A program made the translations under genes and the position numbers. From Neocallimastix lanati (nom. inval.) (taxonomy: Eukaryota > Neocallimastigomycota > Neocallimastigomycetes > Neocallimastigales > Neocallimastigaceae), in assembly GCA_016946835.1 (NCBI GenBank), contig JACVTC010000484.1:1-24327 (forward strand): a stretch of 24,327 nucleotides of DNA, in the 5' to 3' direction. Under the pieces are notes generated by a model. The model made no database searches. It was not told the DNA's origin and saw nothing but the letters and a program-made list of their open reading frames with translations. This document shows positions 270 to 21,600 of the stretch, in pieces; the first letter of the stretch is position 1, and the number at the start of each line of letters is the position of its first letter.

Positions 270-305
<36 letters not shown>

Positions 306-478
306 TTTTATCTAACTTATACTATATTGCCTAAATTCAATATATATTTATTTATGTTCTATCTATATTTTAATATTTATAATTTATTTTCTATTCTTCA
401 TATTGTATTATATATTTTATTCTATTATATATTATCTTTTCCTATATATGCTATTGTTAACAATTATTATTATATTAC

Positions 479-525
<47 letters not shown>

Positions 526-798
526 CTATATATATTTATATTTATAATACTACATACTAAAAATATTAATTATTATTATTTTTTTTTTTTTTTATACTAT
601 ATATATTTATATTTATAATACTATATACTAAAAATATTAATTTAATTATTATTTTTTTTTTTTTTTTTTTTTTTTTTATACTATATATATTTATATTTAT
701 AATACTATATACTAAAAATATTAATTTAATTATTTTTTTTTTTTTTTTTTTTTTTTTTTTATTTTATTTTTTTTTTTTTTTTTTTTTTGTTTTTGTTT
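1..798. other. 3' noncoding region of element A, homopolymer-rich
   Basis: This stretch lies downstream of the broken pol in element orientation. It holds T tracts (A tracts in the element sense) at about 280-309, 480-522, 650-677 and 733-788, (TA)n runs near 219-231, and a short tandem repeat at 522-760. No LTR end, polypurine-like GGGGCATCT or coding frame could be recognised. The open frames that run through it consist of poly-Phe, Tyr and Ile from T/TA runs and are not credible genes. Confidence 0.6.
522..760. repeat. Tandem repeat, about 70-85 bp unit, three copies
   Basis: Three copies start at about 522, 593 and 677. Each begins TATACTATATATATTTATAT, continues through TTTATAATACTA[CT]ATACT and AAAAATATTAAT, and closes with a T run. 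The spacing of 71 and 84 bp differs mainly in T-run length, which suggests expansion by slippage or unequal exchange. Confidence 0.8.
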
Positions 799-3700
799 TT
801 ACTCTTCTTCCTCTATATCTACTTCGGTAAAGTACGGAACTATGTTTTTTAGATGAATATTCCTGTCAGCTATTTCCCCTGTGATAGGATCACAGACCGT
901 TACCGTGTTTAATTCTTGTTTATTATCTTTAATGGACCAGTGAAATATGGATCCAGCTTTCTTCTGTTGAACACCTTACCAAAACTAGCTCTCCAGGTTT
1001 GTAATTACTTTTCATTCTTTTTATTTGTCTTCTTCTGTCTTCCCATAATTTATTTGCTGTTTCGATATTGTTTATAGCTTCCCTTATCCATTTATCGTGC
1101 GTTAAAAACTTCCTGAGCCAGTACTCTTCTTCCGATTCTTCTTCATTTCTTCTTTCTAGATTTATTTGGAGCTCAAACGGTTGTAGGTCCCTTCTTCCAT
1201 AGAGCAGCTCGAAACTACTATATTTTGTAACTTCGTTCTTACAAGTTCTTAAAGCCCAAAGAGCACTGTATAGAGTTTCATCCCAATCTTCCGTTCTTTC
1301 ACTTAATAAACGTAAGTACTTACAGATTTCTTTATTTCTATTTTCTACTTCGCCATTCGATGCTGGATGGTAAGTAGTAATATAATATACAAATACGTCA
1401 TGTAAATCCAAGAAGGCTTTAGTCTTATCTGATATGAACTGTGGTCCATTATCAGTGACTAGAACTTCTGGTATTCCATGACGGGAAAATACCTTCTTAA
1501 GAAACTTAATTACATCTTCCGATTCCGTAGTTTTGAGTGGTTCTGCTTCCACCCACTTTGTTAAATAGTCAACCAAGACTATTATATATCTATTATCATT
1601 ATTTGTTTTAGGTAGGGGTCCTACTAAGTCCAGACCAACACGAGAAAAGGGGAGTCCAGGCTTGGTAGCTAGGTCCTCTGAAAATTTGTTCAATCCTTGA
1701 GGTCTATATAATTGGCATCTATGACAGCATTTAATAAAGGCAGCCACATCCTTCTTCATGTTCGTCCAATAGAAGTCTCTCTTTAGTCTATTATAAGTTT
1801 TGAAAATACCTTCGTGACCTATTTCATGAGCGGCGTTAATTAATTCAACTTTTTCTTCATTATTACTAATAATTCTTCTTAATTTATCATTTTGCTTATA
1901 GTACTCAATACCATCAATAGTAACTATTCTCTTCCTGACGTATTCTTGCATAAAGTTATTTATGGCATCATTATTATTATTTATATTATTATTTATTTTA
2001 TTATCTATATTATTATTTCTATTACTGTTATTACTATCATTATATATTACATTTACTATTTCCTTATTATTTTTACAAGACAATCTAGACAACGCGTCTG
2101 CTAGAACATTCTTCTTCCCCTCTTGATACTGAACTTTCACGTTCAGAATACTGACTTCCGTTACCCATTTAAGATGGCGGCTAGTAAGAGGTTCTTTATT
2201 AGTAAAAATACTGACTAGGGGCTTATGATCAGTATACAAGGTTGTTACAAAAGGGCTACCCGTGAGAAAACACTTGAACTTCCTTACACAATGGAACACT
2301 GCCTTTCCTTCCAAGTCAGTAACACTGTAGTTATTTTCCGAAGGGGAAAGGGATCTACTTTCGAAATAGATTGGAACTTCTATATTATCTTTAACTTGAA
2401 GTAAAACACCACCTAAGCCTGTCCTTGATGCGTCCGTGCGAATAATAAATGGTTTCTTATAGTCAGGAGGTGTTAAGATAGGAGCACTTACTAATTTATT
2501 TTTCAGTTCTTCGAAAGCAACTATGCAGTCCTCAGACCAAATAAAAGGAACATCTTTCTTAAGTAATTGGAATAATGGATATGCAACTTGAGCAAAATTG
2601 TAAATAAACTTTCTGTAATAACCAATGGCGCCAAGGAAGGATCGCAATTGAGTTTTGTCTTTAGGAGGAATCCAGTTTATAATAACTTTGACCTTCTCAG
2701 GAATGGGGGAAATACCTTCGGTAGAAAGAATGTGACCGAGAAGAGTGACTTTATTTTTGAAAAAAGGTACATTTCTCAGTATTTATTTTTTAATTCATTA
2801 TCATTTAAAATTTTAAAAACCTTACCCAAATCGCTAATATGATCTTCTAATGTTTTTGAAAATACAATAATATCATCAATATATATAAAAACGCAAACAC
2901 CAATTAAGTCCATAAAAATTCTGTTCATTTCACGTTGAAATGAAGCCGGAGCGTTGCATAACCCAAATGGCATGACTCTAAAGTTATAATTTCCAAACAT
3001 AGTGGTAAAGGCTGTTTTATCTTTATCTTCTTCAGCCATGGGTATTTGATGATATCCAGAAAACAAATCAATAGTAGATAATATTGGGAATTATTGCCAA
3101 TATAATTAAAGATATCATCGATTAATGGTAGTGCATAAGCATCCTTAATGGTAACATTATTCAATTTGCGATAGTCAACACACAATCGCCATTTGTTACC
3201 ATTTTTCTTTGGAACAAGTACCACCGGTGAAGACCATGATGAGAAGGAAGGTTCAATAAGGTAATTTTCAATTAATTTTATTAATTCCTGTTTTAATACG
3301 TCCATGAGAGATTTAGGTATTCTATATGATTTTTTGTTTTATTGGTTGGGCACCTGGTACTAGTTCGATCCTATGAGGGAGAAGTTTTGATTTACCAAGA
3401 TCATCTGTTTTTATTGCTATAATATCAAAATTTTTATAAAATAATTCCCTCACTATTTTTTTGAAATTTTCAGGAATAGTTTGTATAATTTCATCAATTA
3501 TATTTTGTTTAATTTTATCAGAATCATTTGCATCGTTATTTTCGTCATTTACAACAGTTACTGTTAGCAACATAGGGTTTTGTTCAATATGTTCATCTTG
3601 AGCATGATCTTCTGAATTCGGAATAGGTGAGTCTATATCATAGTATAGATCAGCTAATTCAGTAGAATTATTATTTTCATCAATATAATATAATTTATCT

Positions 3701-4621
3701 TTAACTAGATTGATATCAAATCTATTTTTCTTAAGAGAATCGACACCTATTAAGACATCAAAAATGTCATCTTTTTCAATAACCCTAAAATATTCAACAA
3801 ACGTTCTACATCCAATGGAAATTTTTAATTCAACTACTTCACTAGCAATAGTGGAATTAGAATATGCTTGTAAAATTGTTTCCGAGATGGTACCAATAGC
3901 AGGTTTGTTGATTTTTAATTTATTTAATGTGGATCTTGTTATAGCATTAAGGCTAGCACAAGAATCCAAAAATATTTCACATGATTTATTCTCGACAAAT
4001 CCCTTCACTTTAATAATTTTATTCTTGCTAATTATTGTCATGATATTAGTAACCGTATTTTTAGGGGTAAGTTTTAAGGCCTTCATAAATTCAGATCGAA
4101 ATTTGGGGAATAGATCCAGAAGGTATGTTAGCTTGGTAATTACTTCAGTAGAAGCTACTTCTTTTACTAAATCTTGAATGCAGTATTCTTCAAAAGTCTT
4201 CATCAAATTTATGTGACGTTCCTTGCTATTAATAGGTAATTCTTGAGTATTGGTTTTCATTTTATTATTATTAATTTGTTCCCTAATTTCTCTGATACGT
4301 TCTTGTTTATTTTTCTTTTAGCATTAATAATATTCTTTTCAGTAATGAAGGAAGGATCTAAATATTCTAACTTTTCTGTGATGCTATGATTACCTTTAGT
4401 GTTATTAACTGATTCACTTTCATTTAAAGATAATTTCACAGTTTTATTATTTTTAGCCTTTGTTTCACTATAATTTATATTATTGTTATCTTCTTCTTCT
4501 AATTCAGATTCCCTAAGCATTTCAATATCATCTTGTATAGGTATAACATTTTGATCTCTATTAATATTATTAACATCATTTTTATTATTACTATTATTAA
4601 CATTATTAATATTATTATTAC

Positions 4622-4663
<42 letters not shown>

Positions 4664-5255
4664 TATTATTAATTTTATTATTGTTATTAATTTTATTATT
4701 ATTATTAATAACATTATTATTATTAATATTATTGTTATTATTATTATTATTATTATTATTAATACTGTTATTATTACTATTATTATAACTATTATTATTA
4801 TTATTATTATTATTACTGTTATTATTACTATTATTATAACTATTATTATTATTATTATTATTAATAGGTAAATTAGTATTATGACTCATTGCTGACGTAA
4901 TTATAGGGGTAGGTTGATCTTTTAAATTATTTATTGTTTTATTCTTATCATATGGTTTAACTTTATTCAATTTTGGTTTTGATTTCCTTGTAGCCGCTGC
5001 CACAATTTCTGTGTTATATAAATGTGATTGATCTTCTTGATTAGGAAATTTTTTTGAAAGTGTCATGTTGTTATGGTTACTATTGTTACTATTGGTCATT
5101 AATGAGTTAGTTGGTATTGTAGTCATAAAATAATTATTATTTTGATTGTCGTTTATGTTATTATTATAATTTTGTTTATTGTCAAGGTTATTATTAAAAC
5201 TATTGTCATGGGTTTGTTTCATGGAAGTTGTCCTTCTCCCATTTAATGGTTTAAA
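799..5255 (-). pseudogene. pol: Element A pol: protease-RT-RNase H-integrase polyprotein broken by about six frameshifts
   Basis: Homologous throughout to the intact pol at 8896-14376. Pieces in order are: Asn-rich leader (4257-5255); conserved helix and protease with DSC (3322-4260); RT fingers (2925-3305); RT palm with YIDD (2776-3066); and RNase H, HHCC and DDE integrase (929-2647). A last frame (799 to about 983) supplies the GPY/F-like tail and ends in TAA at 799-801. Frame changes fall near 4258-4280 (ATT/TTA repeat), 3330-3335 (6-base run), about 3084, 2786-2791 (6-base run), 2760-2765 (6-base run) and about 974. No clear nonsense mutation was found apart from these. The lesions are mostly in homopolymers, so either real decay or long-read indel errors could explain them. 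The leader holds an internal duplication of a poly-Asn/Ser/Tyr block (4596-4870). Confidence 0.88.
5222..5255 (-). promoter_or_regulatory. Predicted -1 frameshift signal, element A gag-pol junction
   Basis: On the minus strand the heptamer U UUA AAC (5249-5255) is in the gag frame. A 7-nt spacer (5242-5248) follows, containing the gag stop. Next come stem arm UGGGAG (5236-5241), an 8-nt loop (5228-5235) and arm CUUCCA (5222-5227). One pair is G-U, so the stem survives a base change relative to elements B and C. The pol frame is -1 to gag and opens just before the heptamer. U UUA AAC is an established -1 slippery sequence; its use here is inferred. Confidence 0.85.
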
Positions 5256-6469
5256 GGAGTTTTAATTAATCCCTTTTCTTCCATGTCCGCCAATTGCTTG
5301 TAAGTATATGTACATTCGGAAGCTTTATGACCTTGCATGGTGCATTTATGACATATGATAGTTCCACTAGATGCATCATTGTGATTTCTTCTTCTTGTAC
5401 TATTTTTCATGTGGTCATTAAAATTTCCATTGATCATATTATTATTATTGTTTATCATGTGAGAATTATTAACATCATTATTTATTATATTATTATTGTT
5501 AAGGAATTGATTATTAGAATTTCCTTTTACAGTAAAAGTAGAATCCCCCCTAGTATAGTTATTTTGATTATATCTGTTATTGTATGATCGATTTTTATAA
5601 TTTCCAAACCGCATTAATTGAGTATTATTTTTCATATTATAATTATTGTTGTTATTATAATATCCATTATTATAGCCACTAAATTGTGGGTTAGGTGTAT
5701 TGTACACATTATAGTTATTAGTGTCAATGTTGGGACCCCAAAGTTTTGGTACATCGTTTCTTCTAGTTGCTGTAAATAAAGTATTATTATTAGGATAATA
5801 ATTTAATCCATAATTTAAATTAGCTTGTCCATTTATTAATTCACCATAAATTGGATGATTTAATATTGGGTTTTGATTAATATTAGTTTGAGTAATCATC
5901 ATAGGGGTTCCTCCTGTATATGGCATTGCCTGATTTGTATTTGAAATGATTTCCTTTTCTGCGTCTTCTGCAATTTCTGCAATTTTGAATGCTTCAGTTA
6001 CATTTTCACATTCGGCTACAATTACTCTGGAACATGCGAATACTCTTGAGCTAATAGAGTTTGTGTAATCCTTAACAGTAACAAGTTTTCTATATTCTTG
6101 ACTAAGCTTATTATATAACTTTTTGTATCTATAATTAAATTTCTTTATAGTTTCTACATTAGAAATTTTTAAGGATTTTAAGATAGAACATTTTTCACTT
6201 TCTGTAATCTTCAGATATTCTTCAATTGATTCTTGAATTTCCTTTTTCGTAGGGTACTTGATTTCTGAACCTCTTTTTGTTATAAGGGAGTTTAAAACGC
6301 CTTGAATATCTTCTTCAACAGCCTCTTTAGCCCATGTAAATATTTGTCTTGGTTCAATAATATCGTACAAAGCCATTACTTTAGAGAAATCATTAATCCA
6401 ACTATCAACATCTCTTCCATAGTTGGATAGAAGTGGTAATACTTTTAATAGTTTTGTTGCGTCAAACAT
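5243..6469 (-). CDS. gag: Element A Gag polyprotein (408 aa)
   Basis: Structural protein expected to assemble the virus-like particle and package element RNA in the cytoplasm. Residues 1-175 form the folded core, sharing with the Gag at 14367-15671 the motifs SNYGRDVDSWI, KCSILKSLKI and ETIKKFNYRYKKLY, plus an EAFKIAE helix. Residues 190-360 are Asn-rich and disordered. One zinc knuckle, C-x2-C-x4-H-x4-C, lies at 373-386 near the C terminus and fits nucleic-acid binding. The start ATG is chosen because the matching residue begins the homologous Gag. The stop overlaps the frameshift signal, and the last residues (TPLNH) straddle the slippery site. The frame is undamaged although the downstream pol is not. 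Gag assignment is firm; particle formation is inferred from the family. Confidence 0.9.
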   Translation of the reverse strand: MFDATKLLKVLPLLSNYGRDVDSWINDFSKVMALYDIIEPRQIFTWAKEAVEEDIQGVLNSLITKRGSEIKYPTKKEIQESIEEYLKITESEKCSILKSLKISNVETIKKFNYRYKKLYNKLSQEYRKLVTVKDYTNSISSRVFACSRVIVAECENVTEAFKIAEIAEDAEKEIISNTNQAMPYTGGTPMMITQTNINQNPILNHPIYGELINGQANLNYGLNYYPNNNTLFTATRRNDVPKLWGPNIDTNNYNVYNTPNPQFSGYNNGYYNNNNNYNMKNNTQLMRFGNYKNRSYNNRYNQNNYTRGDSTFTVKGNSNNQFLNNNNIINNDVNNSHMINNNNNMINGNFNDHMKNSTRRRNHNDASSGTIICHKCTMQGHKASECTYTYKQLADMEEKGLIKTPLNH

Positions 6470-6666
6470 TTTGAAAATTTAATAATAGTATATTTTTATA
6501 TAAAAAAAATGTATATGTATTCAAAATAATAAAAATAATAATAAAAAAAAAAAACAATATAAGATAATATTAAATCAATTACAAACTAAAATAATAAAAA
6601 AAAAATTAGTAATTATTATGCTCTGTTATTATTTTCATATAATTTTATCTTGCTTTCATTTATTCC
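6470..6666 (-). other. 5' leader of element A
   Basis: About 200 nt between the primer-binding site and gag, almost entirely A/T with an A run near 6542-6554. It is much shorter than the leaders of B (about 770 nt) and C (over 790 nt), and none of the hairpin repeats of those leaders was found. Confidence 0.6.
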
Positions 6667-6684
6667 CCCCCACGTTGGGCGCCA
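6667..6684 (-). other. Primer-binding site of element A
   Basis: The plus strand reads like a tRNA 3' end, CCCCACGTTGGGCGCCA, ending in CCA. In the element sense it starts TGGCGCCC, four bases (AATT) inside the LTR edge at 6689. Position and the TGG start are standard for minus-strand cDNA priming. The tRNA identity cannot be assigned from the sequence alone. Confidence 0.8.
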
Positions 6685-6688
6685 AATT

Positions 6689-7259
6689 TGATACGAATAA
6701 TTTTTATATTGTATCGGGTGGTTCGTGAATGCAAGTTTTATTATAAAATTATATATTCTAATAAAAGAATTATAATAATTATCACACAAAAAGATTAAAT
6801 AAAAATAATAAGAAAAAGATAAAAGAATATTTGTTGTCGTTTTGTTTTATTAAAATATATATATATATTTTTTTTTTACATTAATTATTTTTAAATACTT
6901 ATTAGTTATTTTAATCTATTCCCTTGAATAATTAAACCTTAACTTTAATAAGTATTTATTTTAAATTTAACTAAAATAATTATTTTCTAAGTATCTCTGA
7001 CTTAGATTTATAAATTCCTAATTCTAAACTAATTAAACTACGTCTGTCTAAAAAAATCATTTTTCTTTCATATTTATATATTTATTTTTATTAAATCCTA
7101 TTGGTTCAATTTATATATTATCTTTACTATCTTTACTAATATTTTTTTTATATTATTTTAAATTTAATTAATATTATTATATATAATTATTTTATAATTA
7201 TTTCCTATTTAACTTTACTATTTATATTAAAATTATATTTTTAATTCGGCACCGTACCA
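6689..7259 (-). repeat. 5' LTR of element A (571 bp)
   Basis: The left edge is fixed by the primer-binding site four bases away. The right edge is set at CA just before TTAC. On the element strand it runs TGGTACG...CGTATCA, an imperfect terminal inverted repeat. It shares the start TGATACGA and the segment TTATATATTCTAATAA with solo LTR D. The partner LTR is outside the window, so the right edge is inferred. Confidence 0.8.
6690..6715 (-). other. LTR-terminal hairpin, element A
   Basis: GATAC (6690-6694) pairs with GTATC (6711-6715), and the stem extends through AATA/TATT with one bulged base. It sits at the U5 end beside the primer-binding site; comparable hairpins occur at the same place in B and D. 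Confidence 0.55.
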
Positions 7260-7263
7260 TTAC
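7260..7263. repeat. TTAC junction between element A and solo LTR E
   Basis: Reads CA|TTAC|TG. It is the same four bases that separate every adjacent element in the window. The flanking LTR ends make a near-perfect inverted repeat around it (ACCGTACCA / TGGTATGGT). Confidence 0.8.
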
Positions 7264-8050
7264 TGGTATGGTTCATATAGTTTTAGGAATATAATAATAA
7301 TTAACACAAATAATAAAATTACAATAAAAATAATTTTGTTTTAAAATCAATGTTTATTTATTTAAATTTATAAAAGAAAAATAATAATATAATTATTTAT
7401 TTAATAAAAAGAAAGTTATTCATTATATTTTATTTCACTAAAAATTACATGTATTTATATTTTTTTATCAAATTAAAATTTGTAAAGCCTAACTATTTTT
7501 TTTAATAAACTAATTACTAATTATTTTAATAAATAAAACATTTAAATTGAAATTGAATTATTATTTTAGTTAATAATATTATTGTTATAAATAGTAGTTA
7601 TATATTATTGAATTATTAATTATTTAATAATAGTTTAATACTAATATATATAAAATAAAAATAAAGAGATTATACAGAATATTTTATTGTGGTTTAGTTA
7701 AATTTAATAATTAAAAATAAATTTAAATTGATAACGAAAATTTTAATAACTAATTAAATAGATTTGATTATTTTCAATATAACATAATACAAAAGAAATA
7801 TAATATTAATATATTAAGTGGGCAAGGACAATATTCTTGGCTAAAGATTTTTAATACATTATAATGGAATCGGATCGATAATTCAAAAAGGAATTATAAG
7901 TTAATTAGTGATTTATTAACTTAAGATTTCTATTTAGTAATATTTGAAGAATATTGGAAAGTTCCAATTATATAGAATAGAATAATCTATAAGGTTAGAA
8001 TAATTTAAATTATTCTAGCACAATTAGTATTATTTGTTCATTCTGTATTA
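7264..8050 (-). mobile_element. Solo LTR E (787 bp), diverged member of the element C LTR family
   Basis: No internal region follows. Landmarks match the element C LTR at nearly the same offsets from the left end: AACACAAAT at 39 versus 40, and CACTAAA with TTACAT at 172 versus 173. Its last 24 bases (8027-8050) also align with the last 24 bases of that LTR (18588-18611), including ATTATTT and CATTCT. The terminal CA has become TA. It is bounded by TTAC on both sides, as expected of a solo LTR left by LTR-LTR recombination. Short palindromes cluster at 7878-8017. Confidence 0.8.
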
Positions 8051-8054
8051 TTAC
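8051..8054. repeat. Target-site duplication TTAC, left of element B
   Basis: Matches TTAC at 17078-17081 at the other end of element B. Including one LTR base it could be read as ATTAC, but TG...CA LTR ends favour four bases. Confidence 0.9.
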
Positions 8055-8674
8055 TGATACGATATTTTATTAAATACCGTATATGTTAGTTGGGCGTTTG
8101 TGCAAAAGGGAATTACTCCAAGAATATTATATTACAATAATTATATTTACTTTTTATTTATTTATCTTTTATTATTTTATTTATTATATTTTATCATAAA
8201 AAAAAAAAAATACATGTTTTATTATTATTCCTTAAAAAAAAAAGAAAATATTTATTTATAAATTATTTTCATAATTATATTTTTACTAATTTTATAAATT
8301 TTATTTATCGAAACACTAAAATTAATTAATAAATATAAATATTCATAACTTTTTACTTATAACTATTAATTCATATTGTTTAACATTATTTAAAAATTAT
8401 TTTAATATTAACATCAATTTAATTAAACATTCAATCTCCGTTATAATTAATATAACTAATTTTACTATATTATCAACAATTCTTTTAATATTTTTAATAT
8501 TATTATTTAATTTAATATTTTAATAATTAATAATAATAAATTATCTTTAATAATATATTAATAATATATTTTAAGATTCATTATATAAAATTAATTTTTA
8601 ATAAATATTTATATTAATAATTTTTCTAAATAATTTTTCTATTATTTTCTATTATTTTTACTGGACATGCATCA
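8055..8674 (-). repeat. 3' LTR of element B (620 bp)
   Basis: Matches 16459-17077 base for base by eye except for two A runs (13 versus 11 and 10 versus 11). On the element strand it begins TGATGCATG and ends CGTATCA. Confidence 0.95.
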
Positions 8675-8686
8675 AGATGCCCCCAC
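8675..8686 (-). other. Polypurine-tract-like site of element B
   Basis: The element strand reads AGTGGGGGCATCT directly against the TGAT start of the 3' LTR. Element C has the same GGGGCATCT|TGAT at 18612-18620, so this is the likely plus-strand primer region. The pyrimidines between the G run and the LTR are atypical for a polypurine tract. Confidence 0.65.
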
Positions 8687-8845
8687 TTAGCTTAGACTTC
8701 GTCCCTTGAAGTCTATAAGCATATTAAAATATTTATTAAACTAATAATACTATTATATATTTTATAATATTTTTTTTATATTTTTTTTTTTTTATATTTT
8801 TTATATATATCAAAATTTTTTTTTTTTTTTTTATATATATATCAT

Positions 8846-8895
<50 letters not shown>
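8687..8895 (-). other. 3' noncoding region of element B with hairpin and 50-base A tract
   Basis: A perfect 7-bp hairpin, AGACTTC (8694-8700) with GAAGTCT (8708-8714) and loop GTCCCTT, lies next to the polypurine-like site. An uninterrupted T run (A50 in the element sense) at 8848-8897 starts within the pol stop codon. Smaller T runs lie at 8769-8794 and 8817-8832. No gene is seen. Confidence 0.7.
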
Positions 8896-8900
<5 letters not shown>

Positions 8901-11900
8901 GATTATAATTTAGGAAATTACTAATATATGGAATTACATTTTTTAGATGAATGTTTCTCTCTGCAATTTCGTTCGTATAAGGATCACATACTGTGACAGT
9001 ATTAAATTGCTGTTTAACTATTTTTAATGGTCCGATATAATAAGGGTCTAGTTTCCTTCGATTGAAATTTCTAACTAAAACTAGGTCTCCTGGTTTGAAT
9101 TCACTTCTTAATCTTTTAATCTGTCTTCTCCTATCTTTCCATAATTCATTTGCAGTTTCAATATTTTTGATTGCTTCAGAAATCCAATTATGGTGATTAA
9201 TAAATTTTCGAACAAAATATTCTTCTTCTGATTCTTCAGGAAATCTTTTGTCAATATTAATTGCTAATTCAAATGGTTGTAAGTCTTTCCTACCATAGAG
9301 TAATTCGAAACTACTAAATTTAGTAACTTCATTTTTTGTTGTTCTTAAAGCCCAAAGTGCACTAGGTAAAATATCATCCCATTCTTGATTTTGTTTACTT
9401 AATTCTTTAAATTGGCTTTTAAGAATTCTAATATATTTGACTATTTCTCTATTCCTGTTTTCAACTTCTCCGTTAGAAGCAGGATGATAAGTACTAATAT
9501 AATGTACATAGACATCATTTAAATCTAGGAAAGCTTTTGTTTTATCAGATATGAATTGCGGGCCATTATCAGTAATTAATATCTCTGGAATCCCGTGTCT
9601 TGAAAATATATTATTTAAAAATCTAATGACATCTTCTGATTCTGTTTTGGCTAATGCTTCAGCTTCCACCCATTTTGTTAAATAATCTACAAGTACTATT
9701 ATATATTTATTACCTCTGAAAGATTCGTATAAGGGTCCAACTAAATCCAATCCTACCCGAGTAAAAGGTAGACCTGGGGGTGTAGCTAAATCTTCTGTAA
9801 ATACATTCGGTGGTTGTGGTTTACATAATTGACATACATGACAAGATTTAATAAATAATCTGATATCCTTATTCATTCCTATCCAATAATAGTTCCTTTT
9901 CAAACGATGGTAGGTTTTAAAGTTACCTTCATGTCCTAAACAATGAGCTTTACTAATAAGTTCCCATTTTTCATTATCATTAAATATTACTTTTCTTAAT
10001 TCATTATTATCTTTATAATACTGAACTCCATCAATTAATACAAATTTCTGGTTTATTATTTTTTTATAGAAATCATTTAGTATTTCAGTACTATCATCAA
10101 TATCATTATTATTAGTATTAACATGATTAATATTATTATTATTATTATCATTATTATTAAAACTATGTTTATTATTTTCTTCAGTTTGAAATACCATATA
10201 ATTCACATTCAATTTATTTTCCACTCCATTATTTTCACTATTATTATTATGTAATTTATTATTAAACTTATTAATGTTATTTACATTATTTTTAATTTCC
10301 TCATATTCCATTTTGTAATTTTCATTATTACTATTGATCTTAATTTCATCCACTAACTCTTTTATTTTATTAATTTTAGTATTTTTCTTATTTCTAATTT
10401 CTTCATTATTTTTAATTTCACAATTTTGAATTTCATTATTTATAACTTGGTTGAATACATCTTTATTATAATTTTTTATATTATTTCTTTTATTTTTATT
10501 TTTTATATGTTTATCATCATTTTTTATATTTTTGATTATATATTTTTCATTGTTAGAATGTAATCTAGATAGTGCATCAGCAACTACATTCCTCCTCCCC
10601 TCTTCATATAACACTTTAATTTTTAAAATACTGAACTCAGTTATCCATTTGACATGCCTTGCTGAAGAAGGTTCTTTATTTTTAAATATGTAAACTAAAG
10701 GCTTATGATCGGTATAAAGAATTGTCTCAAAACTATTACCAGTGAGAAAAGGTTTAAATTTCATGACACAGTAAAATGCGGCAAGCCCCTCAAGTTCTGT
10801 AATGCTATAATTGATTTCAGAATTGGAAAGTGTCCTACTTTCATAATATAATGGCTTCTCAATGTTGTCATCGTCTAACTGAAGTAGTACCCCGCCAATT
10901 CCTGATTTAGATGCATCTGAACGAACAATAAATGGTTTATCAAAATTTGGAGGTGACAATATAGGTGCATTAATAAGACGAATTTTTAAAAATTCAAATG
11001 CATTATTAGATTCGGTAGACCAAACAAAAGGAACATTCTTTTTTGTTAAATCATATAAAGGTTTAGCAATTTGGGCAAAATGGCTAATGAATTTCCGGTA
11101 ATATCCAATTGCCCCTAAGAAAGAACGTAACTGTTTTAAATTAGAAGGAGGTAACCAATTAGCAATAACTTTTATTTTAGAATTCATAGGTTTTATACCC
11201 TTAGTAGAAAGAGTATGACCAAGGAGCTCAACTTCTTCTTTAAAGAAATCACATTTTTCAAAATTCACTTTTAATCCATTATTAGCAAGAATGAGGAATA
11301 CTTTTTCTAGGTCTTTGATGTGTTGATCTAATGAAGGAGAATAAATAACTAAGTCATCTATGTAAATAAAAACACATACTCCGATTAAATCAAAAAATAT
11401 TCTGTTCATCTCCCTTTGAAAAGTAGCGGGAGCGTTGCATAGTCCAAAAGGCATAACTTCAAAATTAAAGTTTCCGTAAATGGTCGTAAAGCAAGTGATA
11501 TCTTTATCATCAGAATGCATAGGAATCTGATGGTACCCTGAGAAGAGATCAATAGTAGACAAAATAGAAATATCACCGCTAACATAGTAAAGTATATCAT
11601 CTATTAAAGGAAGTGCATAAGCGTCCTTTAATGTACAATTATTAATCTTCCTGTAGTCAACACACATTCTCACTTGACCATTCTTTTTCGGTACCAGTAC
11701 TACAGGAGAAGACCAAGGAGAACTAGAAGGGACAATTAAGTTATTATTTATAAGTTTAATTAATTCCTTTTTAAGTGCATCAGCTTGCACTTTTGAAATA
11801 CGGTAGGCCCTCTGTTTAATAGGTGTTGTTCCTGGTATTAAATTAATTCTATGAGGATATAGCTTTGACGAACCCAAATCGTCAGTTTTCAGTGCAAGAA

Positions 11901-14173
11901 CACTAATATAATTTAAAAATAATTTTTCTACATCAGCTTTCAAATTTTCTGGTAATTTTTTTACAATAGAGTGAATCATTTCCAGTTTAGATATTGTGTC
12001 GTCTGTGCAAACCTCGTTTTCATTATGTAGTACTTCATTAGTTATTAATAAAAGAGATGGAATCAATTGTGTTGTAATATCAACCGTTTTATTCTTATAT
12101 TCTTTCCTTTCAATATTTCTATCTACTAATTTATAATTACTATTTAATTTGTTATTGCCGTTTTGATCAGAATCGATTTTTGATGGAAGTTTAGAATGTA
12201 GTATGGGATTTATATTGTTTGTAACTTTAGAATTAATTTTATGATCATTTATTTTATAATTGTCAATTTTATCATCATTCTTATTATTATTCGTTTTTAT
12301 TTTGATATTATTTTCTTTATCGATGTCGACACTATTAAAGAAAGGTAATTTTACATTAAAATTATTTATGTTAATATTAGGTAACTCTGATTTAGCATAT
12401 GTAAAAAGTATATTATTATTATCATTATTATTATCATTGTCACTCCAACTAGTTTCAGAATCCTCATCATTCTCTTCAGAAGAATTATTATTTATATTAT
12501 TCTCCTTATTCATATTATTTTCTTCGTCATTAATTCTATTTGTACTTTCAGAAGGACTCAAGCTAACATCATAAAATAAAGAAGCTAATTCTATAGGATT
12601 ATTATTTTCATCAATATGATATAAGGTATCATTAACTAAATTTATATCAAATCTATTTCGTTTAAGTGTGTCAATACCTATTAATATATCAAAGATATCA
12701 TCCTTATCAATTTTCCTAAAGTAATCGATAAAAGTGTAATTTCCAATAGATATTTTTAGTTCATAAATATCTGAACAAGTTGAATTGTTGGAATATACCT
12801 GAAAAATTTTTTCGGATATTCTCCCAATAGGATTTTTATTAATTTTAAATTTTTTTAAAGCCGTAGTGGTAATCAAATTAACGCTAGCACACGAGTCCAA
12901 GAAAATTTCAGCTGGTTTCTTATCCACAGTGCCTTTAACTTTAATCACTTTATGTTGGCTTATAATTGTCATTACATTTATTAAAGATGTATTCAAATTT
13001 TTCTTTATTTTCTCTTTTCCTTCGGTTAATTTTAATGCTTTTGTAAATTCTGACCTGAACTTTGGAAACAGGTCTAACAAATATACTAACTTCGTTATGA
13101 CTTCGGTTGATGCTACTTCCTTGATAAAGTCCTTAATTTTAAATTCATTAAAATCTTCCATCATTTTTATGTGTTTCTCTGGCTTGGAATAACTTTTAAC
13201 ATTGATGGGTATATCATCTTTGTTACTGCTCAGTATTTCATTTATTTTATTCAATTTATTCGCTTTTTTTACATTTCTAATATTTGGTTGATTGATATAA
13301 GAAAGATCCAAATATTCTAATTTATTTGTATTATTATTAGTTATTGTTTGATTAGTTGGTGGTTGTGAATCCTCAAAAATTTCAATAGATTCATTGAAAG
13401 TAACATTTTTATGATCTTTATTTTCTTTAAATTCTTTACCTTCTTCTTTTTCTGTTGATAGTTTGACATTCGTTCCTCCCTCATCTATTATCATATCAGG
13501 TGTTCCTGTAGTTGCTAATTTATTAACGTTTAATTTTCTTTTCATAATAGTATTTTTCTTCATAGCATTTGTAATAATTGGAACTGGATTATCTATAAGC
13601 TTTTTCTTTATTTCTTTGGTATATGGGGAGATTTTTATTGAATTATTTTTACCTTTCTTTTGGGCAACAGCGATAATTTCCTCATTATGGTAATTATCAA
13701 AATTATTATAAATATTATTTGAATTAGGTTCATTATTAATTTTCTTTTCATTATCATTTATAGAAATTCTATTTAAATCAATTTCATTGTTACTTTGATC
13801 ATCATTATTATTTTTATAAGTATTATTTATATTAACATCATTGTTAACTTGTTTATTAATAGTGTCATTTTCATAGATGTTGTTATGATTACTATTATTT
13901 AATTTATAACCGTTACTAGTATTCTTACTAAGATATTCTATATTATTTAAGTTATTATTATTATTATTATTGGAATAAATATTATCAATACTTGTATGAT
14001 TATCATCAAATAAACTGTTTGTATAATTTATTTTATTATTCTTATTTAAATAATTATTGTTTATATCATAATTATGTGAATTATCATTATAAGGATATCC
14101 ATTATTTATTACATCATTATTTGAAGTTGCACTAGCATTATATGAATTATTATTATTATTATTATTATTATGT

Positions 14174-14204
<31 letters not shown>

Positions 14205-14376
14205 AATTATTATCATTAGTATTATTATAATTATTTTTTATTTTCATAGTATTATTATTTAACTTGGGAGAGTATGTTAAATTTACATATTCTTCATTAA
14301 TACTATTATTTTTATTATAAGTTTGAAGTTTGGTTTGGTTAACGGGAGTTGTCCTTCTCCCATTATTTAGTTTAAA
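8896..14376 (-). CDS. pol: Element B Pol polyprotein, expressed as a Gag-Pol frameshift fusion
   Basis: Open from the slippery site at 14376; the first in-frame ATG is at 14247, from which it is 1783 aa. Positions below count from that Met. Residues 1-350 are an Asn-rich disordered leader with a conserved DNPVPIITNAM motif (219-229). A helix VASTEVITKL...FPKFRSE follows (378-400). Protease has D451-S-C. RT has D900 and YIDD (962-965). RNase H has D1111, E1153, D1180 and D1224. An Asn/Lys-rich linker of about 160 aa follows (1230-1390). Integrase has H1435, H1439, C1469 and C1472, then D1501, D1560 and E1596 with canonical D-x58-D-x35-E spacing. A GPY/F-like tail (1733-1775) ends it, with no chromodomain seen. 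No ATG near the junction supports independent initiation. It should mature Gag, copy the RNA to cDNA and integrate it. Confidence 0.95.
14343..14376 (-). promoter_or_regulatory. Predicted -1 frameshift signal, element B gag-pol junction
   Basis: Heptamer U UUA AAC (14370-14376) is in the gag frame, directly followed by the gag stop UAA. The spacer is 7 nt (14363-14369). Stem arm UGGGAG (14357-14362) pairs with CUCCCG (14343-14348) across an 8-nt loop (14349-14356), giving five Watson-Crick pairs plus one U-G. Gag codons start at positions 2 mod 3 and pol codons at 0 mod 3, a -1 relationship. Confidence 0.9.
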
Positions 14377-15671
14377 TTATTAAAGCTATCTCCATTATTA
14401 TTATTATTATTTACATTAGCTTTGAAATTACTATTAATATTTGAACTAGTAGTATTAATATCCTGATTTATTCCATTAGAATTTCTATTAAAATTATTAT
14501 TTCCAGTGGGAATATTATTCTCATTAAAATTATTATTATTTCTATTAGCAATATTATTTCCAGTAAATTTATTATTTTTATTAAAGTAATAATTACTACC
14601 ATTAAAAGAATTATTGTAGCCATTTTTATTACTATTATTATAATAATTGTTATATTTATTACTATTATTATTATAATCAAAATTATTATTATAATTATTA
14701 CCCATATCATTATTATTCATATTATAAAGATTATTATTTCTATTACTACCATTATTTTTATTATTAGGACATTCATAAGCTTTATGTCCTACTTGTTTAC
14801 ATGAGTAACACATAACTGATTTTCTAGCTTTTGGTTCGTAGTTATTATAGAATCTTCTTGTATCATAAGTATTATTTTGTTGAATTTGTTCTACTCCGTG
14901 ATAATAATTATTATTATTATTAAAACTTTTATTTTTATTGTTACTATATCTACCTGGTGTAAACATTCTATTATTGGTGGAGTTTTTATTTATATAACCC
15001 ATAACATATGATGACGCTTGATATGAATTATCTAAATTATTTCCATGTTCTCTTAAGCTCCTATAAATTGGATGATTTAATAAATTGTTACTATTTTTAT
15101 TTATGTTGTTTTGATATATCATAACATTCTGAGAATTTTTGTTTGTTATAGTTCGTACTTCAGCTTTTTCTGCACGTTCTGCTACTTCGAACGCTTCTGT
15201 TAATGTTTTACAGTTGGCCAAAATTACTTGAGAATGTACATATACCCTATCATGTATAGCATTTAAATAATCATCGACACATATTAATTTTTTATATTCC
15301 AAGTCAAGTCGATGATAAAGAGTTAAATAATTATAATTAAATCCTTTAATTGTTTCATTTCTTTTTATTTTTAAGGCCTTTAAAATTGAACACTTATCAT
15401 TTTGAGTAATTTCTAAATAATCTTCAATGGCTCTCTGGATTTCTTTATATGAGGGAAACCTTTTAACATTATTTCTTGTAGTACATAAAGATTTTAAAAG
15501 GTTTTTTATGTCAGCCTCTACTGCGTTCTTTACCCAAATAAAAATTCTGTTTGGTTCCTCAATGTTGTAAATTTCCATAACATTTTTGAAATCTTCTATC
15601 CAAGAATCTATGTCCTTACCATAATTTGCTAAGTATGGTAAGTCTCTTCTAATTTTCGAAGCGTCCGCCAT
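14367..15671 (-). CDS. gag: Element B Gag polyprotein (434 aa)
   Basis: Particle-forming protein of the element. Residues 1-175 are the folded core and align with the other Gags (LANYGKDIDSWIEDF, KCSILKALKI, ETIKGFNYNYLTLYHRL, EAFEVAERAEKAE). Residues 176-285 are polar and Asn-rich. The single zinc knuckle CYSCKQVGHKAYEC (C-x2-C-x4-H-x4-C, 288-301) is expected to bind RNA. Unlike Gag A, a further 130-residue poly-Asn tail follows the knuckle and runs to the slippery site (last residues NNLN). The tail is coded by AAT-rich repeats and is probably disordered, with prion-like composition. Start ATG is the first in frame and matches the start of Gag A. Intact. Confidence 0.92.
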   Translation of the reverse strand: MADASKIRRDLPYLANYGKDIDSWIEDFKNVMEIYNIEEPNRIFIWVKNAVEADIKNLLKSLCTTRNNVKRFPSYKEIQRAIEDYLEITQNDKCSILKALKIKRNETIKGFNYNYLTLYHRLDLEYKKLICVDDYLNAIHDRVYVHSQVILANCKTLTEAFEVAERAEKAEVRTITNKNSQNVMIYQNNINKNSNNLLNHPIYRSLREHGNNLDNSYQASSYVMGYINKNSTNNRMFTPGRYSNNKNKSFNNNNNYYHGVEQIQQNNTYDTRRFYNNYEPKARKSVMCYSCKQVGHKAYECPNNKNNGSNRNNNLYNMNNNDMGNNYNNNFDYNNNSNKYNNYYNNSNKNGYNNSFNGSNYYFNKNNKFTGNNIANRNNNNFNENNIPTGNNNFNRNSNGINQDINTTSSNINSNFKANVNNNNNNGDSFNNLN

Positions 15672-15739
15672 TTATCTAATTATTATTTTAATTTGAAATT
15701 ATATTCTTATATACTTTTACGAGTATAATAATATTATTT

Positions 15740-15757
15740 TTATTATTGTTATTATTA

Positions 15758-15809
<52 letters not shown>
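15740..15809. repeat. (ATT)n microsatellite
   Basis: Some 20 ATT units with a few GTT interruptions, in the leader just upstream of gag. Confidence 0.9.
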
Positions 15810-15810
<1 letters not shown>

Positions 15811-15843
15811 TCTTATTTTATATACTATTACTAAAATATTACT

Positions 15844-15981
15844 ATTACTAAAATATTATTTATTATTATTAATTATTACTTAATTCACTATTACTAAAAT
15901 ATCATTTATTATTATTAATTATTACTTAATTCACCATTACTAAAATATTATTTATTATTATTATTAAAATATTATCTATTA
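15844..15981. repeat. Tandem repeat, 46-bp unit
   Basis: Copies begin ATTACTAAAATAT at 15844, 15890 and 15936, exactly 46 bp apart. The third is partial. A degenerate fragment precedes them at 15826. Confidence 0.85.
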
Positions 15982-16090
15982 TTTTTTTTTTTTTTTCTAA
16001 ATATTATCACATATACTATTAATAAAATATTATTTAATATTAATTTTTATACTAAACTATTACTACTTTTTATTATAATATCATTTCTTA

Positions 16091-16142
16091 ATTAAAGGTT
16101 TATTCGTTTTTATACTGGTCCGAATTCCCAGTTGTCTTTAAT
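16091..16142 (-). other. Leader stem-loop, copy 1 (52 nt)
   Basis: On the element strand the outer stem is ATTAAAG...CTTTAAT (7 bp). The inner hairpin is ACTGG-GAATTCGGA-CCAGT. It is repeated at 16192-16243 with the same length. Confidence 0.65.
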
Positions 16143-16191
16143 TACTAATAAAGATGATAATAAAAAAAAATTAACTATACTAATAATAATA

Positions 16192-16243
16192 ATTAAAGAC
16201 TTATTCGTTTTTATTCTGGTTCGAACTCCCAGTTACCTTTAAT
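16192..16243 (-). other. Leader stem-loop, copy 2 (52 nt)
   Basis: Same architecture as 16091-16142: outer stem ATTAAAG...CTTTAAT and inner hairpin CTGG-GAGTTCGAA-CCAG. The copies lie 101 bp apart start to start. Differences fall mainly in the loop and linkers while the stems are kept. Confidence 0.65.
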
Positions 16244-16277
16244 TATTATTTAATAATAATCATAATAATTTTAGGCG

Positions 16278-16308
<31 letters not shown>

Positions 16309-16437
16309 TTTATATATTACTATTATAAAAAAATTAATTATTTAATTTTAATTTAATATTAATTATTTAATTGTCTTTATTTTTTAAAAAGTAAATATCA
16401 ATATAAATATAAATTTCATAATATTCTTGGTTTGCAC

Positions 16438-16454
16438 GCCCGGATTCTCCACCA
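16438..16454 (-). other. Primer-binding site of element B
   Basis: The plus strand reads GCCCGGATTCTCCACCA, a convincing tRNA 3' end: CCA, discriminator A, 7-nt acceptor strand ATTCTCC, T-stem CCCGG. It lies four bases (AAAA) inside the LTR edge at 16459. The primer differs from that of element A. The tRNA is not identified. Confidence 0.85.
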
Positions 16455-16458
16455 TTTT

Positions 16459-17077
16459 TGATACGATATTTTATTAAATACCGTATATGTTAGTTGGGCG
16501 TTTGTGCAAAAGGGAATTACTCCAAGAATATTATATTACAATAATTATATTTACTTTTTATTTATTTATCTTTTATTATTTTATTTATTATATTTTATCA
16601 TAAAAAAAAAAATACATGTTTTATTATTATTCCTTAAAAAAAAAAAGAAAATATTTATTTATAAATTATTTTCATAATTATATTTTTACTAATTTTATAA
16701 ATTTTATTTATCGAAACACTAAAATTAATTAATAAATATAAATATTCATAACTTTTTACTTATAACTATTAATTCATATTGTTTAACATTATTTAAAAAT
16801 TATTTTAATATTAACATCAATTTAATTAAACATTCAATCTCCGTTATAATTAATATAACTAATTTTACTATATTATCAACAATTCTTTTAATATTTTTAA
16901 TATTATTATTTAATTTAATATTTTAATAATTAATAATAATAAATTATCTTTAATAATATATTAATAATATATTTTAAGATTCATTATATAAAATTAATTT
17001 TTAATAAATATTTATATTAATAATTTTTCTAAATAATTTTTCTATTATTTTCTATTATTTTTACTGGACATGCATCA
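16459..17077 (-). repeat. 5' LTR of element B (619 bp)
   Basis: Partner of 8055-8674; differs only in A-run lengths near 16602-16612 and 16636-16646. Confidence 0.95.
16462..16485 (-). other. LTR-terminal hairpin, element B
   Basis: In RNA sense UACGGUAUUU pairs with AAAUAUCGUA around a 4-nt loop, ten pairs including one G-U. It lies at the U5 end directly before the primer-binding site. The same hairpin occurs at 8058-8081 in the 3' LTR. Confidence 0.6.
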
Positions 17078-17081
17078 TTAC
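17078..17081. repeat. Target-site duplication TTAC between element B and solo LTR D
   Basis: Reads CA|TTAC|TG and is shared as the right duplication of B and the left duplication of D. Confidence 0.9.
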
Positions 17082-17756
17082 TGATACGATATATTTTTAA
17101 ATATTCGTATTTACAATAGTTTTGGGCGCTACACTGGGGAATTGTATTAAGTTATATATTCTAATAATAATATTAATTATTTTATTTAGTTATTTAAATT
17201 TTTTATTTTAGGAAATTTGTTTTGTAATATTTTATTTTTATTTTATTTTATTTTATTTTATTTTATTTTATTTTATTTTATTTTATTTTTATCATATTAA
17301 TTAACTATTAATAATTATAATTTAATTATAATATTCTATAATTAATTACTTAAACAACTAATTTTATTAAAACTAATAACTAAACTACTATCTTAACTAA
17401 TTAAAACATTTTTCTTATATTAAATCAACTATTACTAATTAACATATATCAATAATTCATTAACAAAAACATTTTTTTTTTTTTTATAATATTTTTATAT
17501 ATTTTTTTTTTATAATTATTATCTCTATATTAAATCATAATTGTTATATTTTATATAAACATTAATATAAAAGTTTATATTATAATAATTAAATTTTATA
17601 CTATAATAATATTATTTTATATGATTTATAATTAATATAATTCATCATTTTTATATAATTAATTTTATAATAATATATATTTTACAAACTTTATATAATT
17701 AATATAATTTAATAATAATTTTAAAATATCATTATTTTTCTTTTCATCTTGTATCA
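17082..17756 (-). mobile_element. Solo LTR D (675 bp), related to LTRs of A and B
   Basis: Begins TGATACGA and ends GTATCA, giving terminal inverted repeats TGATAC/GTATCA. It carries landmarks of the A/B-type LTRs: TGGGCG at offset 41 (B: 36) and TTATATATTCTAATAA at offset 70 (A: 60). TTAC flanks it on both sides and there is no internal region, so it is a solo LTR. It contains a (TTTTA)n microsatellite. A terminal hairpin ATACGA/TCGTAT lies at 17084-17110. Confidence 0.85.
17229..17290. repeat. (TTTTA)n microsatellite in solo LTR D
   Basis: About a dozen near-perfect pentanucleotide units. Confidence 0.9.
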
Positions 17757-17760
17757 TTAC
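17757..17760. repeat. Target-site duplication TTAC between solo LTR D and element C
   Basis: Reads TATCA|TTAC|TGTTAAGG. It is the right duplication of D and abuts the left LTR edge of C. Confidence 0.85.
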
Positions 17761-18611: not shown

Positions 18612-18623
18612 AGATGCCCCGAC
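18612..18623 (-). other. Polypurine-tract-like site of element C
   Basis: The element strand reads CGGGGCATCT against the TGATAAG start of the LTR, as in B. The pol stop is only 18 bases from the LTR, so this element has almost no 3' noncoding region. Confidence 0.65.
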
Positions 18624-18629
18624 GAAGAC

Positions 18630-21600
18630 TCAAGCTTCTCTGTAAGCGGAGTTAAACTTTACTAAATTTTTAAAGTGAACATTCCTATCGAGTTGCTTTC
18701 CAGTCTTCTGATCGATTAGGGTTGCCGTGTTGAATTGAATTTTTAAAATTTTAAATGGTCCATTGTAATATGGTTCTAGCTTAGTGCGGCTAAAGTTTCT
18801 AACAAGAACAAGATCACCAGCCTTTAATTCTTTTCCTTTTTTCATACTTATTTGTTCTTCTCGTCTTGTTGCCCAATACTTGTTAGCATTCTTCACATTT
18901 TCGCATGCTTCTCTAGTCCATTGATAATGACGAACAAATTTTTCCATTAAGATTTCATCATATGATTTACCTGCATTTTCAATTGTTCTTATGGCTATAT
19001 CATAAGGCTGTTGGTCTTCTCTTCCATATACTAATTCAAAACTAGAATGTCCAGTAGCTGTATTTTTGGTAGTTCGAAGTGCCCATAAAGCAGAAGGTAA
19101 AACTTCATCCCAATCTTGATTTTTCCTTCCTAATAAACGGAGTAATTTTCCAATTTCTTTATTTCGATTTTCAGTAAGGCCATTTGATTCAGGGTGGTAA
19201 GTAGCTACAAATTTAACATATACATCATAAAGATCAAGAAAGATTTTAGTCATATCAGAAGTGAATTGGACTCCATTATCAGTAGTAATAACTTGAGGTA
19301 CACCATGTCTTGCAAAAACGTTTATTAAAAATTTAATTATATCAGAGGAAGTTATGTTTTCAGTGGGTTCGGCTTCAACCCATTTGGTAAAGTAATCAAC
19401 AGTTACTATAATATATTGATTATTATTTCTTGTTTTTGGTAACGGTCCTATAATATCTAATCCTAAATGCACAAAGGGACCCTCCACTTTAGTTGGATGG
19501 TTTTCGGTTGGTTCTGGATATGGTTGAGGACGATTTAATTGGCATTTTTCACAATTACTAACAATTCTTTTGATATCTTTAATCATATGATTCCAATAAA
19601 AGTTTTTCTTAAGTCTTTGATATGTTTTGTAATATCCTTCGTGGCCAATATTATGAGCTTCTAAAATTAATTTAAACCTTTCATTTTCGTCCGTTATTAA
19701 TTTTCTATAATTTCCATTGTCGATAAAGTAATCTTCACCATCAATAACAGTAAACTTTTCATTAATAAATTCCTTTATAACCTTAGATAATAATTCTTCA
19801 TTATTTCCATTAGTAATTTTTGTTAATAATATCTTTCTCTCTTCCTTACTTTTCATTCTTGAAAGAGCATCAGCTAACACATTCTTTTTGCCTGATTCAT
19901 ATTTTATATTAATTCCAAGCATACCAGCGGTTAGACACCATCTTGTTTGCCTTGCATTCAAAGGTTCTTTATTCTTAAATAAACCAACTAATGGTTTATG
20001 ATCTGTGTAAATAGTTGTAGGTAATGGATTTCCTTCAATATAAGATTTAAATTTAGTCATACAGTAAAATAAAGCTGTTCCTTCCAAATCTGTGATACCA
20101 TAATTCTTTTCAGTTTTCTTCAAACTTCTACTTATAAAGTGTATTGGATGCTCCTTACCGGTTTCTTCTTCTTTTTGTAAAAGAACTCCACCAATTCCAT
20201 TATACGAAGCATCAGTTCTAATGATAAAAGGTTTGTCAAATGACGGAAATTTTAGAATAGGTGCATTGATTAATTTTTCTTTTAGGAGTTCAAAGCTTTC
20301 TTGTTGTTCTTTATTCCATTCATATTTAGTATTCTTTTTCAATAATTTACATAAAGGTGAGGTAATTTGAGCATATTTAGGGATAAAGTCACGATAATAC
20401 CCTATTGCTCCTAGAAATGATCTTAATTCATGAATTGATGAAGGGGCTTCCCACTTCTTAATAGCTGTTATTTTACTTTCCATGGGACTTAATCCTTTAG
20501 TAGTAAGTTTGTGACCTAATACATCAACTTCAGTTTGAAGAAAATGGCACTTTTCAATATTAATTTTTAACTTGTTTTCTTTAAATACTTCTAATACTTG
20601 TTTAATATGAATTAAATGTTCTTCGATACTTTTTGAATAGATCAAAACATCATCAATAAATACATAAACAAATTCACCAATAAAAGGGAATAAAATTTTA
20701 TTCATTTCTCTTTGGAAGGTTGAGGGAGCTCCAGTAAGTCCAAAAGGCATAACCTTAAATTGATAATTTCCAAACTTAGTAGTGAAAGTGGTTACTTCAA
20801 CGCTTTCTTCATCCATTAAGATTTGGTGAAAACCAGAAAATAAATCAAGAGTTGTAAATATTTTAGATCCTCCGAGACTATCAAAAATTTCATCTATATA
20901 TGGAACTGAATAAGAATCTTTTTCTGTCATATCATTGACTTTTCGGTAGTCAATACACAAGCGCCACTTTCCATTGTGTTTTAGAATGAGTACTACTGGA
21001 GATGACCATTCTGAACAGGATGGTTCTATCAATCCTTTCTTAATAAGCTTTGTAAGTTCTTCTTTTAAGATATCTGATTTTAATTTAGTTAACCTATAAC
21101 TTCTTAATTTTACTGGCTTTGCATTTGCTTTCAAACGGATCTTATGTGGTGAAAGTTTAGAAGGAGTTAGTTCTTCTGTTGAAGTGGCAACTATGTCAAT
21201 CATTTCTTTGAGAATTTTAATAATTTGTTCTTTATAATCTTTATTTAAGGTACTTAAAAATTCATCACTCTCAATAAATTCCATTGGAGTTAATTCCTTT
21301 ATAATTTCCTTTTCATTATTCGTTTCTTTAACTTTTCTAATAGTGCAAATTATACTTTCTTCATCATAATATTGATTATTTATTTTAGCTATTTCTTCGT
21401 ATTCACTTTCTGACAAAAGTTTACATAAACTGTTTAAGGTCGGATGAATAAATAAACAATGATCGATTTGAGTTTTAAAGTTTATTAACATATCATAAAA
21501 TGAGTCTTCTTTCTCAATAATTCTAAAGTCCGCATTAAATTCATAATTATTAATTTTTACTGGTAATTGAACAATAATTCCTTCCGAGTATTCTTCATCT

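Follow-up and report, generated by a model that had tools for sequence, protein, structure and literature searches.

Stacked Ty3/gypsy elements with a common 4-bp spacer probably reflect repeated integration just upstream of a Pol III-transcribed gene

How do LTR elements of several families come to lie end to end on one strand, with the same four bases, TTAC, at each junction? The window, that is, the whole 24,327-bp stretch of DNA analysed here, is the entire contig C428 of an AT-rich, 199-Mb assembly in 762 contigs. On its minus strand, it carries the Ty3/gypsy elements A, B, and C together with the solo LTRs E and D. We consider it highly probable that this stack was formed by repeated integrations of several Ty3/gypsy families at one position about 13-16 bp upstream of a Pol III-transcribed gene. 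The most likely anchor in this case is a tRNA gene located a short way beyond the contig's right end. The window is composed as follows.

1..6688, minus strand: internal part of element A, Ty3/gypsy, pol frame broken; the 3′ LTR is found on C262, beyond the window
6689..7259, minus strand: 5′ LTR of element A; a 4-bp spacer separates it from primer-binding site TGGCGCCCAACGTGGGG, at about 6668-6684
7260..7263, no strand: TTAC, shared 4-bp duplication at the A/E junction; repeated in C262
7264..8050, minus strand: solo LTR E, from a family with 461 exact right ends genome-wide
8051..8054, no strand: TTAC at the E/B junction, read TA-TTAC-TG; CAAA, CACC or AAAA at other loci
8055..8674, minus strand: 3′ LTR of element B, from the comparison of the LTR pair
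8675..16458, minus strand: internal part of element B; open gag 14367-15671, open pol 8896-14376, primer-binding site TGGTGGAGAATCCGGG at the right end
16459..17077, minus strand: 5′ LTR of element B, from the comparison of the LTR pair
17078..17081, no strand: TTAC at the B/D junction, read CA-TTAC-TG
17082..17756, minus strand: solo LTR D; on C24 and C300, a copy serves as 5′ LTR to a larger element
17757..17760, no strand: TTAC at the D/C junction, read CA-TTAC-TG; D-TTAC-C also on C24 and C300
17761..18611, minus strand: 3′ LTR of element C
18612..24327, minus strand: internal part of element C, which ends at the contig end; open pol 18630-22664, open gag-like frame 22628-23566
Beyond 24327: predicted 5′ LTR of C, duplication, and tRNA gene

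An earlier note on this DNA had described four TTAC junctions in the order A, E, B, D, C on one strand, and we recovered all of them, as CA-TTAC-TG at 7260-7263, 17078-17081, and 17757-17760 and as TA-TTAC-TG at 8051-8054, where the right end of E is TA, one change away from CA. The LTR edges were likewise as described: the 5′ LTR of A starts at 6689 beside the primer-binding site, and copies of E and D elsewhere have identical edges. The position of this primer-binding site, at about 6668-6684, rules out E as A's own 5′ LTR. Given the composition of the window, the chance of finding TTAC at three further junctions is about 5e-7.

In Pfam searches, B and C each showed domains for RT, RNase H, and integrase, and the scanned piece of A showed RNase H plus integrase. 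The order RT-RNase H-integrase, gypsy-type Pfam domains, LTRs of the TG...CA type, and a primer-binding site characterize Ty3/gypsy LTR elements and were all found; for A, the assignment is based on the RNase H-integrase piece. Among solved structures, 7q5b (Ty3) was the best match for the pol of C. This pol also matches a protein from ENA at 99%, and a frame that might belong to the host yielded no homologues. The scanned frame of A is 66% and 64% identical to the pol of B in two stretches and 50% identical to that of C, and B and C share 50% identity in two stretches. Judged by these identities, A, B, and C are related yet distinct families. No chromodomain was detected with Pfam in the C-terminal parts of the A, B, and C pol proteins among matches up to E 5, a search that a divergent domain could escape.

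A 24-kb contig is short, and this one is made of repeats, which would favor an artificial join. The probability of an assembly artefact is nevertheless negligible, as the same architecture recurs at many places. Contig C262 repeats two of the junctions in the order A-TTAC-E-TTAC-B, with 99.94% identity over 3.4 kb (window 6500-9900), and D-TTAC-C recurs on C24 and C300, identical across the 394 bp compared. We conclude from these recurrences that the window stack is not an assembly artefact. On C300, D-TTAC-C is preceded by an LTR of family Z, not by B, so this is more than the window locus minus some copies, and D is part of a larger element there. The prediction that TTAC would also be found to the left of A was borne out on C262, where CA-TTAC precedes A, the order being the end of LTR X, TTAC, and A.

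No tRNA gene is present within the 24,327-bp window. Elsewhere in the genome, however, the same families lie at the stated distance from many tRNA genes, with a 4-bp duplication and with transcription mostly away from the gene. We sampled 118 right LTR ends, comprising 68 of the 129 exact ends of B and 50 of the 461 exact ends of E. The first 30 listed of each family were taken, followed by 38 B and 20 E ends from the first 100 listed, with likely external ends preferred; C308 was left out, its flank having already been read. Thirty of the ends were internal and 88 external. Another LTR abuts 49 of the 88 external ends at 3-6 bp (4 bp in 25 cases, 3 bp in 16, 6 bp in 7, and 5 bp in 1). A tRNA gene in the same strand sense lies 12-16 bp from a further 18 ends, 17 of them called by ARAGORN (Ser, Val, Trp, Ala, Met, Gly, Gln) and 1 by cmscan. 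At nine ends the flank is tRNA-like, containing a B box as well as an A box that lies at 20-23 bp; the remainder consists of 11 unclassified flanks and 1 that is too short because of a contig end. The A/B-box rule is passed by 11 of 29,600 random positions and by 11 of the 18 tRNA flanks. Neither ARAGORN nor cmscan (two cmscan runs, 5 + 4) called a tRNA in any of the 9 A/B-box flanks; the cmscan run on 5 of them missed L055, which the other cmscan run found. One unclassified flank, L036, shows Z at 8 bp and then tRNA-Ser. Known LTR family ends are present in 25 of 86 flanks of 110 bp, all at offsets 3-6 and 18 of them at offset 4.

Some of the sampled places are allelic or duplicated contigs, and the 88 right ends correspond to 80 distinct 40-bp flanks (44 LTR, 15 tRNA, 9 A/B box, 11 other, 1 short). 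Nine more E places outside the 88 count gave 3 LTR-type starts (by eye), 2 tRNA-Ser genes, 1 repeat of L055, 1 A/B-like sequence (by eye), 1 internal end, and 1 place without a match. Including tRNA-Arg on C149, C237, and C337 beside the seven isotypes named above, the fixed short upstream distance was observed for many isotypes. In the stacks that we walked, a Pol III gene is located at the end on the growing side. The reciprocal sample consisted of 16 tRNA genes with a similar start (one variant), taken from the best of the 63 tRNA-family matches listed. Another tRNA gene is situated directly upstream of 9 of them (by eye); 5 of the other 7 are preceded by a repeat of loci already read (two look identical), and 2 matched nothing.

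The left ends behaved differently. Only 2 of 52 external left ends (L046, L061) face a tRNA gene or A/B-box sequence, compared with 27 of the 88 right ends, where the left ends were sorted by a regular expression for the primer-binding site and some may be misplaced. Thus, it is the gene that positions the elements, most of which are directed away from it. The common orientation within the window, which had been attributed to a non-palindromic target, is instead a polarity relative to the gene, and this polarity is only a bias: C is an inverted neighbor of B in L032 and L109, as is X to the left of B in L020 and L022.

By analogy with Ty3, whose integrase is positioned by TFIIIB, the integrase of these families might be positioned by the Pol III initiation complex. 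A cut at a fixed distance from the gene, combined with a 4-bp duplication, would restore the identical 4 bp at the identical distance, so that an LTR-recognising system would be unnecessary. The next element would land between the gene and the previous LTR and share the 4 bp with it. Stacks would accordingly tend to a single 4-mer per locus and would grow toward the gene, with the oldest copy farthest away. A cut shifted by +2 would widen the gap to 6 bp and yield a new duplication that can be predicted. The solo LTRs E and D would be products of later LTR-LTR recombination. As regards age order, LTR divergence amounted to 0 mismatches in both pairs, with 1 gap column for A (partner on C262) and 3 gap columns for B. 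The earlier suggestion of a fixed hotspot renewed by every insertion was right in kind; the hotspot is the edge of a Pol III-type gene on its upstream side.

The flanks of single copies are mostly in line with a 4-bp target duplication. Equal outer 4-mers were found for 17 of 21 solo LTRs and, among the 12 full-length copies of B or E whose two ends were both read, for 9. The outer 4-mers are unequal for 4 of the 21 solo LTRs and for the full-length copies of B on C452 (CAAA, AAAT), B on C31 (TTTT, TTTC), and E on C24 (AAAA, CAAA). Unequal flanks also surround C on C337 (CTTA, TTAC) and X on C262 (AAAA, TTAC); the flanks of X probably result from LTRs of separate loci having exchanged sequence.

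The 4-mer differs by locus, which rules out TTAC as a preferred target sequence. Spacers in other stacks are CACC, AAAA, AATA, TCAG, and GCGA, and E and B abut also with CAAA. Contig C38 reads E-AAAA-E-AAAA-E, and the identical loci L005 and L006 read CACC-E-CACC-B-CACCTT-E. L010 contains two B-like LTRs followed by E, with AAAA before and GAAA after E. The pattern ATGCATCAN{0,30}TGATACGA, that is, a B right end, 0-30 bases, and a B/D-type start, occurs at 5 places genome-wide including the window, and the gap is exactly 4 bp in all of them. Two of these places, on C73 and C308, are 99.6% alike. In several stacks that extend to the gene, spacer and gene-side 4-mer are the same, namely on C2 (AAAA, tRNA-Gly), C12 (AATA, tRNA-Val), C70 (GCGA, tRNA-Ser), C24 (TTAC, tRNA-Ser), and C149 (TTAC, tRNA-Arg). 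On C111, where B and C are separated by the 6-bp gap TTAAAA, the AAAA predicted after C was found, which is a weak test in A-rich DNA. Contig C59 speaks against the offset rule, with CACC, CACC, CACCTT, and then CACT beside tRNA-Thr. We also observed that the AAAA on C111 adjoins A/B-box sequence, at which ARAGORN calls no tRNA.

TTAC itself is found beside more than one tRNA gene. On C149, a solo X LTR with TTAC on both sides is followed by AAAACGTAGAA and tRNA-Arg. Element C ends in TTAC on C237 and C337, which are 99.75% alike, followed by AAAATGTAGAA and tRNA-Arg, and on C24, followed by AAACAACCATAA and tRNA-Ser. The C copies with TTAC are located 15-16 bp from these tRNA-Arg and tRNA-Ser genes. 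C300, otherwise like C24, has TTAA beside its gene, and the letters there look like indels; ARAGORN calls no tRNA beside its C copy. The letters to the left of the first TTAC are nearly equal on C149 and C300 and represent the end of family Z (167 exact copies). Six of nine Z ends read TTTTACA and one reads TTTCACA, and two are interrupted after TTTTAC by another LTR. Z LTRs lie 10-12 bp from tRNA genes; in L036, a Z copy flanked on either side by ATAAA, a 5-bp duplication, lies 12 bp from tRNA-Ser. The recurrence of TTAC at the tRNA-Arg and tRNA-Ser loci is thus probably explained by its being the final stretch (...TTTTACA) of an older Z LTR, which would have been re-cut by families integrating about 4 bp farther out. 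We infer the same Z origin for TTAC at the window's own locus. None of C337, C237, C24, and C300 was established as the window's missing right end: C337 has other letters to the left of C, and C300 has Z before the larger D element.

Three further explanations have to be weighed. The earlier note had also proposed self-targeting, by a system that would recognise TTAC together with an LTR terminus. An integrase guided solely by an existing LTR end, whether or not TTAC accompanies it, and inserting right against that end with no gene involved would account for the 49 of 88 external right ends that abut an LTR and for the participation of several families. Yet other stacks carry other 4-mers, and many copies are immediate neighbors of a tRNA gene, without an intervening LTR; 27 of the 88 ends adjoin tRNA or tRNA-like sequence at a narrow distance. 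In addition, offsets of 3 and 6 bp occur, and the scarcity of left ends facing such sequence (2 of 52) is as expected with a polarity set by the gene. We therefore regard self-targeting as extremely unlikely. The observation named in advance as refuting it, random duplications with no excess of LTR-abutting insertions, was made in part: the duplications do differ from locus to locus, but insertions abutting an LTR are very frequent.

It is very unlikely that the stack was assembled not by serial integration but by recombination or block copying, be it ectopic LTR exchange, segmental duplication, or joined extrachromosomal copies. Such events are suggested by the unequal flanks of some copies, among them X on C262, which matches X on C149 exactly over its last 500 bp, by the occurrence of D-TTAC-C in two settings, and by C273, where three B ends are spaced 8475 bp apart as in an LTR-sharing tandem. 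Exchange within LTRs would, however, leave no clean 4-bp spacer, and the distinct families in the stacks have their own termini and such a spacer, which equals the gene-side duplication in several stacks. Finally, the tRNA rule could be right in general while the window stack is anchored elsewise or has moved from its gene. The contig ends in C, and the flanks of X are unequal, both of which would permit this reading; the C copies with TTAC at 15-16 bp from tRNA-Arg and tRNA-Ser genes argue against it, and we consider it unlikely.

Repeated integration upstream of a Pol III-type gene would turn a puzzling repeat into a clear mechanism. With hundreds of copies from several families, it offers a natural system for studying how an integrase reads the position and direction of a Pol III promoter. 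The stacks show how a genome might gain tens of kilobases beside a tRNA gene and leave the gene unbroken, and multi-family stacks with a common 4-bp mark could serve as an ordered record of past invasions. In the literature covered (titles and abstract openings, with few subscription journals and no bioRxiv), no description of LTR stacks with the same 4-mer at tRNA genes was found.

The closest known systems are related gypsy-type elements. Ty3 of Saccharomyces cerevisiae resembles the window families in its Ty3/gypsy pol and in its fixed integration place just upstream of Pol III genes. According to the cited part of PMC8632968, Ty3 duplicates 5 bp at a TFIIIB-determined site upstream of the Pol III start, and its integrase carries a chromodomain; the window families show a 4-bp duplication, and no chromodomain was found in the pol of A, B, and C. 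The Tfc1 C-terminus permits Ty3 insertion in both orientations, as stated in the cited part of PMC5911963, in contrast to the bias observed here (27 of 88 right ends versus 2 of 52 left ends facing the gene). DGLT-A of dictyostelids, as described in the cited part of PMC5006619, is a Ty3/gypsy element without a chromodomain that resides 13-33 bp upstream of tRNA genes, and only 20 insertions are detectable in D. discoideum. It thus resembles the window families in its Ty3/gypsy type, the lack of a detected chromodomain, and the short distance upstream of tRNA genes. The words tandem, nested, and array are absent from the main text of PMC5006619. DGLT-A inserts in either orientation according to the relevant passage of PMC5911963, whereas the orientation here is mostly divergent. 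Tj1 of Schizosaccharomyces japonicus is, in the cited part of PMC4600332, a gypsy-type element inserted upstream of Pol III genes in a fixed orientation, transcribed with the gene, with a 5-bp duplication and at 5-11 bp from the mature tRNA end; its authors state there that they know of no other wild-type LTR element with fixed orientation. Tj1 and the window families are alike in being gypsy-type, oriented, and located upstream of Pol III genes, but the latter are transcribed mostly away from the gene and duplicate 4 bp instead of 5 bp. Compared with Ty3, DGLT-A, and Tj1 as portrayed in these sources, the families described here are distinguished by their 4-bp duplication, their mostly divergent orientation, and their multi-family stacks.

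Element C was inverted relative to the adjoining B in L032 and L109, and X, the LTR found left of A on an overlapping contig, was inverted relative to its adjoining B in L020 and L022. These inverted neighbours indicate that insertion polarity is a strong bias rather than an absolute rule. On contig C273 of the genome assembly (G000), three right ends of B were spaced by 8475 bp, as expected for tandem B copies with a common LTR. The coding part of element A (window positions 929–6478) was broken and spread over several frames; despite this, its LTR pair showed 0 mismatches.

Some landing sites were tRNA-like sequences that recurred in the genome and carried both an A box and a B box (L030, L066, L111, L124; L062, L123, L143; L075). 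Neither ARAGORN nor cmscan made a call at these sites, which may be tRNA genes in decay or repeats derived from tRNAs. In nine of the 16 sampled tRNA genes (L078–L093), an apparent second tRNA gene was located ~14 bp upstream, and one cluster on contig C555 of G000 comprised >30 tRNA genes among the matches listed.

Copies of the LTR family Z (L036:1520–2178, L094, L176, L184–L189) were found 10–12 bp from tRNA genes, with TTTTACA as the apparent terminus of the family. The L036 copy was associated with a 5-bp duplication. One end stretch of this family occurred in 167 exact copies in the genome, and some copy pairs were spaced by ~7.04 kb. Family Z thus appears to represent a second integration register, alongside the 4-bp families.
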